DNA from: a virus
Virus record (IMG/VR): IMGVR_UViG_3300006192_000040
Coordinates: 1-23,220 of that record
Direction: 5' to 3' (one strand)
Length of the DNA: 23,220 bases
Part shown: in pieces, positions 10,286 through 23,220 of the stretch
Layout: each line of letters opens with the position of its first letter
Position numbering within the stretch: the stretch's first letter is position 1
Made by a program: the position numbers and the translations under genes
Notes under the pieces: generated by a model
Told to the model about the DNA's origin: nothing
What the model saw: only the letters and a program-made list of their open reading frames with translations
The model's database searches: none

Positions 10286-10504
10286 TTATGCCTGCAGCAG
10301 CTTGGTCAGCCAGTGTGGGCGAGGTTGATGGCACGGCTGGAACCGCAGCGCGCCACGGCGGCCCTGGCTGTCTTCCAGATAACTGCCGTCGAAACGGGTG
10401 GTGTTGCGCATCACCGGCTCGTCACCGCTGGTGACGACGGTGGCGCGGTTGAACAGCAAAAACGGCAGCGGGATCAGCCCCGGCTGCTCGGCGCGCAGTT
10501 TCAT
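10286..10504 (-). CDS. Hypothetical protein (72 residues)
   Basis: Its ATG overlaps the Ogr stop codon (ATGA), so it is translated as part of the same unit. The sequence (IPLPFLLFNRATVVTSGDEPVMRNTTRF, then a basic tail) has no recognised domain. The overlap and the matching reading direction are the main evidence that it is a gene. Confidence 0.6.
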   Translation of the reverse strand: MKLRAEQPGLIPLPFLLFNRATVVTSGDEPVMRNTTRFDGSYLEDSQGRRGALRFQPCHQPRPHWLTKLLQA

Positions 10505-10758
10505 GCTGACTCCTTGAGCGGGACGCTCTTCGACATGGTTTTGTGGTTTTTACCCACGCCCTTGCAGAACGGCAGCACGATGGCCGGATTGGGCATGGCG
10601 GATGGACTGATGGTGCCGACGATTTCAAACGCCGCCTTGAAGGTGTGGCCGCAGTTGACATTGCTGCAGGCGTAATAGGCGTGGCCTGTCAGCGGGCTCA
10701 TTTTGGTGGAGTTCCGGGTATTCGCGTGGTAACCGCAGTGTGGGCAAATCAATCTCAT
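10501..10758 (-). CDS. ogr: Ogr/Delta-family late transcription activator
   Basis: An 85-residue protein with the exact cysteine spacing of the P2 Ogr / P4 Delta zinc finger: C5-x2-C8-x22-C31-x4-C36, with the flanking MRLICPHCGY and YYACSNVNCGHTF. Members bind a dyad site about 55 bases upstream of late promoters and recruit RNA polymerase through its alpha subunit. The ATG at 10758 follows AGGAGACC; the longer open frame upstream overlaps CII and is not used. In P2 ogr lies between D and attP, whereas here it is an early gene directly after cII. The protein should switch on the tail operon and P-Q once the early operon is expressed. Confidence 0.93.
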   Translation of the reverse strand: MRLICPHCGYHANTRNSTKMSPLTGHAYYACSNVNCGHTFKAAFEIVGTISPSAMPNPAIVLPFCKGVGKNHKTMSKSVPLKESA

Positions 10759-17404: not shown

Positions 17405-19852
17405 TTAATTGCGGTCGGTCAGGGAGGCGCGGCCATTGGCAGCTGCCTGCCGTTCGCGTCGGTCTAGTTCGCGGCGCACCTCTTGCGCCACATCCGCGCC
17501 GGATTGCCCGGGTTGCTGGACGATGTGGATCGGTGCGCTGATCTGGGTGGTGGTGTTGCCTCTGGCGACCGGTTTAGGGGTCGGTGTCGGAACGACACGC
17601 GGGCCGGTACCGTAGGTGTAAGCCGAGGAAAGTGCCGGGGTCCCAAAGTTGCCATTCAGATAGCCTGGCGTGTTGGCTGTCGGGATCTCGAACTTCGGGA
17701 TCTTCTTGGTTTCGAGGATGCCGAGCGATTCGAGCAGCCATTCGATCCCTTTCAGGAAAGCCTTGAGCGGGGTGAGGGCCAGGTTGAAGGCTTCGCCCAG
17801 GATGCGGCCGACGAACTGGCCGGCACTGCCAAACCCTTCCAGCGTCTCTTTCGAGAACTGGAGTGGTTCGAGCAGGTCGCCAAACCAGCCCGATAGCGCT
17901 TTAACCCCGGTACCGATGCCATCAATCAGCGGGGCGAACGGCTTGAAGGCTTCAAAGACGGGGGCGAGCCCTGCCATGATGCCCTGCCATAGCCCGCTGA
18001 AAAATGCGCTGATGGGCTGCCAAAACTTGATGATGGCCACGCCCAAGATTGCGAGCCCGGCCAGTGGCGCCAAGATGGCGGTGATGGCCCCCAGCATGCC
18101 GCCAAAGGTGACGCCCAGCACCCCAAGGGTCAACTTCATGATAGCCATGGGGCCAAGCAGGGCAGCAACGGCCAGCGACAGGCCTCCGAAGGCGATGGTG
18201 ACGACCGACACAATGGCGCCAATCTTCATCAGGGTGTTGGAGAGTTCCGGGTTTTTCTTTGCCCAGTTACCGAGGCGCTCTGATAGGTCGGCAATCCATT
18301 CTGTGATGGCCTTGATCTCGGGGGCGATAGCTTCGCCAAAGTTGACCATGACGTTGGTAAAGGTGCCGGTGGCGGCATCCCACAGGCTGCCCAGGGTGCC
18401 AAGCTGGGCGTTGACCCGCTCTTGCAGGGCGGCTTGGTCGGCCATCTTCTTCTGGGTTGCGCGATAGCCATCCATGCCTTTGTTGATGATCAGCTCCAGC
18501 ACCTGCAGGGTTTCAGCATCGTCGCCGTAGATGCCCTTCAGAACTTGCAGGCGGTGCTCGGTGTTCAACCCCTTTAGCTTGGCGAGCTGGGCAAACATGT
18601 TCTCCATCCCTGCGAATTCCCCCTTGCCGTCGGTGAAATTCAGCTTCAACCCTGTGCCTTTCGTGGCCTTGGCAATCTTGCCGGTGTTCATACTCATCTG
18701 GAAAACTTTGCGGTAGGCGTTCCCTGATGACTCGCCCGCCATGCCAGCCTGATCGGCCATGATGACCAGCGGGGCAAGCACCTTGGCGGCCTCAAGCCCT
18801 GACTTGCGCAAGATTCCCATGGCCGGGGTGAGTTTGGTGAAGGCGCCCAGCATGTTGCCGCTGTCAACGCCCAGGTAAAACGAGCGCTGGATGGTATCCA
18901 TCAGCCCCATCATGTCTTGCTCGGCGGTGCCGGTGGCATCCTGCAGCTTGGCCGCAAACAGCGCCGCCTGGTCGAATGGCATTTTCAACTGCACACCGAG
19001 GTAGGCAGTTGCCTCCCCCAGGCCACCCAAGATGGATTTTGCGCTCATCCCCTGCTGGATCAGCGTGCTCATCATGTTCTGAAAGTCCGCCGTGGTGCCC
19101 GGCAGTTTGTTGCCGAGCTTGGTGGCCAGATCGCTGATGGATTGGAACTCCTGCCGCACCTGGCCGCCCTTGCCCATCATGGACACCTTGAGGTCTACGA
19201 CCGATGTTTCAGCTCTGGCGAACTCGATCACCGGCTTGAGGGTAGTCAAGCCCATGGCTGTGCCGGTCGCCAGCGCCGTGGCGCCGTGGCCTGCTATCTG
19301 GCCACGCAGCTCCTGGGTTTGGCGGTAACTGGCTTTGACCTGGTTGAGGCGCTTTTGCTGGTCGGCCAGTTGGCCCAGCTTGGTGCGCTGAGAGTCGAGC
19401 ACGGTGTTCGCGGCGGCCAAATCGGTCTTGAGGCGGCGCTGTGTTTCGCTGAGGTTGCTGGTGTTGATGCCGCTCTTGCGCATGGCTTCACCCATCTGAG
19501 CATGACGGGTGATCATTTCCCCCTGTTTGGTCTTGAGCTGGTTGAGGGCTTTCTCGGCCTTGTTGAGCTCGTTGATCATCAGGCGGGTGGGCTTTGGAGT
19601 GTCGGCAATCTTGCGCTGCAGTTCGCTGAAAGAACCCTCGGCCTGTTTCAACTGAGCTTTGGTCGCGCCAATCTGGGCACCCAGCGTCTTGTAGCCTTCG
19701 ATTTGACCGGCTTGTGTTTCGAGGTCACGGATTTTCTTCTTGGTGTCGACCAGGTCTTTGGCGGTGATGCGGCTCTGGCCGCTGACTGCTTTGAGGGGGG
19801 CGGTGAGCTTGTCGACCGCCCCCAGCAGGATTTGAAGTTTGAGAGGGTTCAT
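17405..19852 (-). CDS. T: Tail tape measure protein gpT
   Basis: 815 residues, essentially the P2 gpT length, so the tail should be close to P2 length. It sets the tail length and is held inside the tube. The first 200 residues are strongly coiled-coil (ITAKDLVDTKKKIRDLETQ, then LNQLKTKQGEMITRHAQMGE). Residues about 540-615 are hydrophobic with several membrane-like segments. The C-terminus carries a proline- and threonine-rich linker (RVVPTPTPKPVARG). Its ATG overlaps the end of the E' frame (CAATGA), so it is probably coupled to E-E' translation. Confidence 0.95.
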   Translation of the reverse strand: MNPLKLQILLGAVDKLTAPLKAVSGQSRITAKDLVDTKKKIRDLETQAGQIEGYKTLGAQIGATKAQLKQAEGSFSELQRKIADTPKPTRLMINELNKAEKALNQLKTKQGEMITRHAQMGEAMRKSGINTSNLSETQRRLKTDLAAANTVLDSQRTKLGQLADQQKRLNQVKASYRQTQELRGQIAGHGATALATGTAMGLTTLKPVIEFARAETSVVDLKVSMMGKGGQVRQEFQSISDLATKLGNKLPGTTADFQNMMSTLIQQGMSAKSILGGLGEATAYLGVQLKMPFDQAALFAAKLQDATGTAEQDMMGLMDTIQRSFYLGVDSGNMLGAFTKLTPAMGILRKSGLEAAKVLAPLVIMADQAGMAGESSGNAYRKVFQMSMNTGKIAKATKGTGLKLNFTDGKGEFAGMENMFAQLAKLKGLNTEHRLQVLKGIYGDDAETLQVLELIINKGMDGYRATQKKMADQAALQERVNAQLGTLGSLWDAATGTFTNVMVNFGEAIAPEIKAITEWIADLSERLGNWAKKNPELSNTLMKIGAIVSVVTIAFGGLSLAVAALLGPMAIMKLTLGVLGVTFGGMLGAITAILAPLAGLAILGVAIIKFWQPISAFFSGLWQGIMAGLAPVFEAFKPFAPLIDGIGTGVKALSGWFGDLLEPLQFSKETLEGFGSAGQFVGRILGEAFNLALTPLKAFLKGIEWLLESLGILETKKIPKFEIPTANTPGYLNGNFGTPALSSAYTYGTGPRVVPTPTPKPVARGNTTTQISAPIHIVQQPGQSGADVAQEVRRELDRRERQAAANGRASLTDRN

Positions 19853-20872: not shown

Positions 20873-22051
20873 TTATGCGGCGGCCGCGACGCGGGCGCCG
20901 AAGTCGATGAGGTAGGTGTCGGTGATGCGCTGGATGAAGCCCAGGTCTTCGAGCGGCGGTACCGGGGTGTAGTTGTAATCGATGCGCAGCTTGCCGGCCT
21001 TGAGGGTGTCTTTGTCGTTGAGCTCCTCGTTGTACCAGCAGTCAAAGCCGAGCAGGTAACCGCCCGCCACCAGTTCGCGACCCTTGGCCTTGATGCCCTC
21101 GATGATGTCTTTCACCAGGGTGGGGGTGAGCGGCTTGTCGTTGGCCCACATGTGGGCCTCGGCCATGGTGTCGGCCAGGATCTGGGCGGTGCGGGTGTAG
21201 TTCTCGAACTGGAACAGGGGATCATCGGAACAGGTCCGGTTGCCCCAGTAGCGGAAGCCGTCCGCCCGGATGAGGGCGGTGATCTCGTTGGCGTTGAGCA
21301 GGCCGACCTCGGTATCGGGGTCTTGCAGATCCCAGAACAGGGCCTTGGTCATGCCGTCGACCCCGGTCACGCCGACGTTCGACAGGGTCTTGTGCCAGCC
21401 GATTTCTTTGTCGATGAATGCCCGCATGGCGGCCGCCTTGAGGCAGGCATCCAGTTTGATACTGGCATTGGCGGTAGTGTCCCAGGCGGTCCAGTCGCCG
21501 TGGATCGGCATCAGTTCGCGGCTGGAGAAGTTCTCGCGGTAGGCGAGTGCCGCCTCGACGGTGTCGGCAATGGTCGGCACATAGGCGAAGGCGCGCAGCT
21601 TCTTGGCCGCACCCGCCAGGGCGGTGGCTACGGCTAAGGTGCAGTTGTCCGGCACGCAGAGGATGCGCGGCTTGACGCCCGTGACCGGGGCGGCCCGCTC
21701 CAGTGCCTTGAGGCCGGTATAGCTGCCATCCGGCAGAATGGTGCCGATGATGTTGCTGGTCAGCTCGGCGGCGTCGGCGCCATCGGCCACGCGCACGGCG
21801 ATGACGATGGTGTTGACGGTGTCATAGATGGTCTGCAGCGACTTTTTGAGGTTGCCGGTGCTTCCCGCCTTGGCGATGGCCGCCGGCAGGTTGGCAATCA
21901 GCACGGGTTTGTTGAGGGGGAAGTAAGCGGTATCCGCATCGCTGCTGGTGCAGATGATGCCGATCACCGCCGTGGCGACGGTGCGGATGGTGCGCGTGCC
22001 TTCGCTGACTTCCACGACGCGCACGCCGTGGTGAAATTGGTCCAGTGCCAT
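20873..22051 (-). CDS. FI: Contractile tail sheath protein gpFI
   Basis: 392 residues; P2 FI is 396. It forms the contractile outer sheath. The family start HHGVRVVEVSEGTRTI, with TAVIGIICTSSDAD, and the C-terminal FIQRITDTYLIDFG are clear. The ATG at 22051 follows CAGGAGAACCT; an in-frame extension upstream reaches into the reverse transcriptase gene and lacks a ribosome binding site. It is the first gene of the FI-D operon. Confidence 0.96.
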   Translation of the reverse strand: MALDQFHHGVRVVEVSEGTRTIRTVATAVIGIICTSSDADTAYFPLNKPVLIANLPAAIAKAGSTGNLKKSLQTIYDTVNTIVIAVRVADGADAAELTSNIIGTILPDGSYTGLKALERAAPVTGVKPRILCVPDNCTLAVATALAGAAKKLRAFAYVPTIADTVEAALAYRENFSSRELMPIHGDWTAWDTTANASIKLDACLKAAAMRAFIDKEIGWHKTLSNVGVTGVDGMTKALFWDLQDPDTEVGLLNANEITALIRADGFRYWGNRTCSDDPLFQFENYTRTAQILADTMAEAHMWANDKPLTPTLVKDIIEGIKAKGRELVAGGYLLGFDCWYNEELNDKDTLKAGKLRIDYNYTPVPPLEDLGFIQRITDTYLIDFGARVAAAA

Positions 22052-22190
22052 AGGTTCTCCTGTTGTCCGGACGGAGCATTCTTTGCAATTTTTCGCATGG
22101 GTAATGCATGTGATGTGAGCAGGGTCAGGATGCAGGGGCGGGGGATGACAGGCGAGCGGCGGCCAGTGTGTGAGGGCCGTACACACTGGC
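22052..22190 (-). promoter_or_regulatory. Candidate Ogr-dependent late promoter of the FI-D operon
   Basis: A 10-bp perfect inverted repeat GCCAGTGTGT/ACACACTGGC (22162-22171 and 22181-22190, nine-base loop) lies 111-139 bases upstream of FI. Ogr/Delta proteins bind a dyad of TGT...ACA type centred near -55; if this is that site, transcription would begin near 22120, 70 bases before FI. There is no good -35 box, as usual for such promoters. It overlaps the end of the reverse transcriptase gene. A hairpin terminator or DGR hairpin are alternatives, but no T run follows. Confidence 0.45.
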
Positions 22191-23201
22191 GAAGCGGTGA
22201 CAAGGCTCGCTAATCGCGACGCTCGGCACGATGGCCACCTCCCTCTCCTGGCGGCGCTGTTTTATAGCGCCCTGCATCCTTGCGCATGAAGACGTTCTGC
22301 GGGCGTGGGCCAGTATCGATATTGCTGCAGGCCAGTTGGCTCGGCGGATGGCGCGATTGAATTTGATCATTGAGTGCTTGCGGATAAATCGCCTGCCACG
22401 CCAAGTGCGATAGCCAACGAAGTTCACGCCACGACGAACGGGCGCGATGGTCCACTTTGAATAGGTCATGCCCAGCTCTCTGGCAATAAACTCCTCGATG
22501 GCTGCTTTGTGGCTTACAGCTTGCTCACGGCTCAGGTCGAACAGAATGAAGTCATCCACGTAGCGGCAATATTGGCGAACTTTTAGCTGGCGCTTGATGA
22601 AGTGGTCGAGCGGATTCAGATAGATGAGCGCGTAAAGCTGCGACAGCAGGTTGCCAATGGGGATCCCGAGCGGCTCTGGCAGGCTAGCAAATGTCATCAT
22701 CAGCCTGACTAGCGCCTCGTCGCCTATCACTGTGCGGATTTGCCGCTCCAGAATGGTGCGGTCGATGCGGTAGAAGAATTTTCGCAGGTCCAGCTTGAGG
22801 GTGTAGCTGTCTGGCTTGCTGGCGCGCAGGGCGGCCTGGGCGTAGTCGGCGGCCTTGTGGGTGCCTTTGCCTGGGCGGCAGGCGTAACTCTGATCGATAA
22901 AGCGGCGCTCAAAGAGCGGCATGATGACGCGATATATGGCGTGCTGAATGACGACATCGCCGAACCATGGGGCGCATATTTCCCTCTGTTTTGGCTCGCA
23001 GACCTGGAATCGCCTGTATTCGCGCGGCCGGTATGTTCCTTGCTTGATGCGATTGCTTAGCTCGGCCAGGATGGCACCGGCGCGAATGTCGAATGCCAGC
23101 ACGGCGCGGGTGCGCGTTTTTCGCTTGCGGGCGGTTTGCCACGCTGCGATCAGGTTGTCTGGCGCTAGAATTTTCGCCATCAGGTTTTTGTGTGTTTTCA
23201 T
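22125..23201 (-). CDS. Reverse transcriptase of a diversity-generating retroelement (DGR)
   Basis: A 358-residue reverse transcriptase. N-terminal part: RRFQVCEPKQREICAPWFGD and QSYACRPGKGTHKA (64-116). Catalytic aspartates: D138 in LKLDLRKFF and D216/D217 in YVDD. Its IGNLLSQ at 182-188 is the DGR hallmark; other retroelements have QGxxxSP there. GVNFVGYR follows at 258-265. It reads close to the Bordetella phage BPP-1 enzyme in every motif. DGR enzymes copy a template repeat with A-to-N mutations into the variable end of a receptor-binding gene. It lies where P2 has its tail-fibre end, so the target is probably just right of the window. A stop codon (TAA) abuts the ATG. Residues after about 315 have no clear counterpart. 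Neither template nor variable repeat is visible here. Confidence 0.9.
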   Translation of the reverse strand: MKTHKNLMAKILAPDNLIAAWQTARKRKTRTRAVLAFDIRAGAILAELSNRIKQGTYRPREYRRFQVCEPKQREICAPWFGDVVIQHAIYRVIMPLFERRFIDQSYACRPGKGTHKAADYAQAALRASKPDSYTLKLDLRKFFYRIDRTILERQIRTVIGDEALVRLMMTFASLPEPLGIPIGNLLSQLYALIYLNPLDHFIKRQLKVRQYCRYVDDFILFDLSREQAVSHKAAIEEFIARELGMTYSKWTIAPVRRGVNFVGYRTWRGRRFIRKHSMIKFNRAIRRANWPAAISILAHARRTSSCARMQGAIKQRRQEREVAIVPSVAISEPCHRFASVYGPHTLAAARLSSPAPAS

Positions 23202-23220
23202 TTATTGCTCGATGGTGGCG

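Follow-up and report, generated by a model that had tools for sequence, protein, structure and literature searches.

The gene at positions 22125–23201 (minus strand) encodes, with a probability of about 0.95, the reverse transcriptase (RT) of a diversity-generating retroelement (DGR) whose cassette occupies the tail-fibre slot of a temperate P2-like phage, directly upstream of the tail sheath gene FI; the phage is probably one infecting Aeromonas. The window, the stretch of DNA analysed here, is 23,220 bp long and spans an entire viral record. Within it, the RT gene is an intact open reading frame of 358 codons with an ATG start, and FI follows directly downstream. The remaining parts of the cassette were read from a sister phage contig that continues beyond the window edge.

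The sequence of the RT places it among enzymes of the DGR kind. The open reading frame matches Pfam RVT_1 (1.3e-16) and PHROG 1423, 'Reverse transcriptase' (8.8e-103). Its best solved relative by sequence is chain 8ub7_A, deposited as 'Reverse transcriptase' (5.9e-54), which we take to be the DGR enzyme of BPP-1; the remaining solved RT chains score 3e-21 or weaker, the next being a group II intron RT at 3e-21. In a tblastn search of phages, BPP-1 brt exhibits 38% identity to the window RT, and none of the curated NCBIfam cut-offs for group II maturases, retrons or DRTs is reached by it. The motifs IGNLLSQ, YVDD and GVNFVGYR, from which an earlier note on this DNA had recognized a DGR enzyme rather than a retron or group II intron RT, are all found as described, and that classification holds. 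Residues 1 to about 315 are conserved across relatives. By contrast, the last ~25 codons (22125–22203) consist of DNA that is shared with a phage lacking the RT, and this C-terminus is probably a read-through of the FI promoter region.

The window carries the P2-type genes for terminase P, portal Q, gpA, Ogr, integrase, repressor, D, U, T (tape measure), FII (tube) and FI (sheath), and both gene content and gene order are those of a P2-like phage (Peduoviridae), in line with the earlier note, which had called the phage P2-type. The sheath gene FI (20873–22051, minus strand, ATG at 22051; Pfam Phage_sheath_1 and 1C) lies downstream of the cassette and encodes the 392-aa form that is also found in the sister contig (L002 9141–10319). 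A zinc-finger late activator of the Ogr/Delta type is encoded at 10501–10743 (minus strand; PF04606, 57.7 bits) and presumably activates the operon that carries the cassette. The nearest named genome is that of Aeromonas phage vB_AsaM_LPM4 (Piscesmortuivirus, Peduoviridae), which is likewise P2-like and exhibits 83% identity over 51% of the window; because of this similarity over half of the window, the host is probably Aeromonas. Near the N-terminus of the tape measure T, positions 19487–19735 do not align to L002 although both flanks do, which on alignment marks a further mosaic joint.

No TR/VR repeat pair is present in the 23,220-bp window, because the window reaches no more than 19 bp past the RT start codon in the upstream direction. 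The region beyond was therefore read in L002 (IMG/VR 3300034522_000100), a 35-kb contig. Over its final 1,072 bp the window is 100% identical to L002, including the 19 bp that precede the RT start (23202–23220, minus strand), and the RT genes share 1,075 of 1,077 bases, with two differences. In L002, the genes run V, W, J, I, a PHROG5417 protein, a tail-fibre N-terminus protein, a PHROG8734 protein, the DGR target, avd and RT, and the cassette itself is ordered as target with VR, GAGA-loop hairpin, avd, TR, RT, late-promoter-like site and sheath FI. The target gene (L002 6149–7252) encodes a 367-aa protein with an FGE-type domain that matches 5vf4, the DGR variable protein TaqVP of Thermus aquaticus, over its full length (3.6e-105); by this homology it has a C-type lectin fold, with the VR (L002 7129–7241) at the 3′ end of the gene. 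The accessory gene avd (L002 7335–7712; Pfam bAvd, 1.2e-15; PHROG 'Avd protein of DGR') is followed by the 113-bp TR (L002 7750–7862), which lies between avd and RT and stops 138 bp short of the RT, an equivalent position being past the window edge. The target takes the place that genes H and G hold in P2, ahead of FI, the very position that had been predicted for the element. By linkage to L002, we infer that the window's own phage carries a corresponding TR, VR, avd and target.

The TR and VR of L002 differ at 16 of 113 positions, and all 16 differences fall at TR adenines, of which there are 24 (hypergeometric p = 6.6e-14). Both the avd-like gene and the A-biased repeat pair of 100–150 bp that the earlier note expected to the right of the window are thus found in this contig. 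An A-biased TR/VR pair also accompanies all 74 RT relatives that have >1.5 kb of upstream DNA and 79 of 89 relatives overall, a total that counts some with less upstream DNA than 1.5 kb; among 31 control zones scanned, none contained such a pair. An exact search for this particular TR/VR in other viral contigs returned only the L002 contig. Natural variation in the VR was accordingly assessed in near-identical groups of more distant relatives, in which the RT is about 51–58% identical. In several contig groups, including L062/L064/L065/L068 and L053/L055/L056/L057, the RT, TR and flanking DNA are identical, whereas as many as 21 adenine-derived positions, and no more than one other position, differ between the VRs. 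Read from these alignments, such variation is a probable trace of mutagenic homing in nature, in the relatives rather than in the window phage. Because the VRs of otherwise identical contigs differ almost only at template adenines, the DGR family appears to be active in nature.

By analogy with the family, the RT and Avd would reverse-transcribe the TR RNA, making errors at adenines; the resulting cDNA would then take the place of the VR in the 3′-terminal part of the C-type-lectin target gene. The replacement would alter the binding face of the tail tip, such that new receptors could be tried. This diversification mechanism, proposed in the earlier note, is supported by the TR/VR pair, avd and target in L002, and by linkage for the window phage.

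Two other readings of the gene were weighed. P2-like prophages are known to harbour defence RTs, and PADLOC matches the window RT to many UG/DRT models, so that the gene might be a defence-type (DRT/UG) or retron RT borne as prophage cargo. We regard this as scarcely credible: the PADLOC matches are generic RT matches, the RT falls far short of the NCBIfam cut-offs for Drt and retrons and no family-specific defence model is reached above its cut-off, a BPP-1-type RT is the best solved relative, and avd, TR and VR adjoin the RT in L002, with a TR/VR pair in every testable relative. The defence-RT and retron identities were rejected on the missed cut-offs and the presence of TR/VR pairs. It is also very unlikely that the cassette is decayed or orphaned, with the RT left behind and the TR or target missing or dead in the window's genome. 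The location of TR, VR, avd and target outside the window would fit such decay, as would a P2-like contig of the same lineage (L097, 5001–6300) that shows that parts can be absent; yet the RT is absent there too, whereas the window RT is intact, is only 2 nt from that of L002 and lies in 1,072 bp, including the 19 bp upstream of the RT, that are identical to a complete cassette. In L097 the target is kept at 75% identity without avd, TR or RT, and sheath FI follows directly, within about 190 bp of the target; on its gene content L097 is a target-only sister, and members of this lineage can lack the cassette.

A hairpin with a GC-rich 7-bp stem and a GAGA loop (GCCCCGC-GAGA-GCGGGGC) lies 29 bp after the VR in L002, and none follows the TR there. 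Phage DGRs carry a GC-rich hairpin with a GRNA loop 4–34 bp from the VR (PMC3240598), and the L002 hairpin is of this form. Since DGR-less sisters carry a similar stem with a different loop at the operon end, the L002 hairpin may double as an operon terminator. Among the 79 relatives, a stem of at least 7 bp is found after the VR in nine and after the TR in none, compared with one in shuffles. The hairpin after the VR is not general across these relatives and occurs mainly in the target family of the window phage.

The right-hand boundary of the module coincides with a palindrome. A sequence of the type CCAGTGT-N13-ACACTGG is found at 22164–22188 (unstranded), within the 3′ end of the RT gene and before FI. 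In the LPM4 and L002 genomes this type precedes V and FI and is also found at the O/P divide; copies lie at L002 1645–1669 and 9014–9038, L177 14546–14570, and L093 7605–7629, 11607–11631 and 19133–19157. The palindrome at 22164–22188 is probably a late-promoter site of the Ogr type that serves the sheath operon, a reading based on its recurrence at these places and on the Ogr/Delta protein encoded in the window. P2 late promoters contain Ogr sites of the form TGT-N12-ACA, whereas the spacing here is 13. L002 resembles LPM4, which has no DGR, on either side of an interval from L002 2878 (inside J) to 8999 (in the last RT codons), within which homology is broken. Identity between the window and L002 runs down to 22149 and gives way to several percent divergence. 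The right-hand edges of both comparisons fall at the palindrome. We give roughly even odds to the proposal that the receptor-binding module (fibre, target, avd, TR and RT) is one unit exchangeable between Mu-like and P2-like phages, with the right-hand crossover in this lineage at the Ogr-type palindrome before FI, where the last RT codons and the late promoter share DNA. The palindromes recur at late operon starts; their core is uniform across all three LPM4 sites and different between phages, as if the sites and their activator change together.

The RT tree joins the window, L002 and L003 in a single clade, nested in a group of 11 members that also includes Pseudomonas phage Bise and L004–L010 (100/98). 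Bise is Mu-like, with transposase, Mor, Gam and Ner. Like the module here, that of Bise and L005–L009 comprises fibre, target, avd and RT with small proteins between, and the Bise RT and target are 61% and 62% identical to their counterparts here. Unlike here, the genome is Mu-like and a Dam methylase rather than FI follows; in L006–L009 the gene after the RT is Dam-like, as in Bise, at 30–35% identity. On this tree, the closest kin of the window's module sit in Mu-like phages, which points to repeated DGR capture in the same tail-fibre slot. Sheath FI is also downstream of the RT in L029–L031 and L039, yet these lie elsewhere in the tree, and the ACA1 RT is far from the window RT, beside BPP-1, where the branches are long and the join may be false. 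The placement of L029–L031, L039 and ACA1 apart from the window clade suggests separate captures of DGRs into this slot.

The DGR of BPP-1 (mtd-avd-TR-brt) shares with the present cassette the order of target/VR, avd (Bbp7), TR and RT, adenine-specific TR/VR differences and a hairpin after the VR, but its target is Mtd, its phage genome is of an unrelated type and only the module here is located upstream of a P2 sheath gene. TaqVP, the full-length homologue of the L002 target, comes from a Thermus prophage. The earlier note knew of no report for such a phage; Pseudoalteromonas phages ACA1 and ACA2 (Peduoviridae, 2023; PMC10612066) are a published P2-like precedent, so a DGR in a P2-like phage was already known. 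In these phages, target, avd, TR and RT follow gpI and a fibre attachment gene, the VRs differ between phages, and no other P2-like phage characterized by then had a DGR, according to the authors (PMC10612066). Like the window phage, they are P2-like and carry an antireceptor target, avd, TR and RT; they differ in that the RT is 36% identical and on a distant branch, the target is of the VHML type, the TR is translated within the RT open reading frame and other genes lie downstream. Among >30,000 metagenomic DGRs surveyed, three of six major lineages are mainly phage-encoded (PMC8144416). New here are the Mu-like kin, the block ending at a palindrome in the last RT codons and the target-only P2-like relative. 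The few P2-type phages whose tail tip is diversified by a DGR thereby gain a further P2-like lineage, probably one of Aeromonas. LPM4 without the module, L097 with the target alone, and L002 and the window with the full cassette form a natural series for comparing the retention and loss of diversification.

L180 (4001–5077), which is Klebsiella phage KPN U2874 of the unrelated family Casjensviridae, encodes a homologue of the DGR target at 43% identity, and neither an RT nor avd is annotated within 4 kb of it. Several contigs, namely the window, L003, L011, L021, L024 and L082, stop at most 300 bp upstream of the RT; the repeated and variable TR/VR may be what interrupts assembly there.
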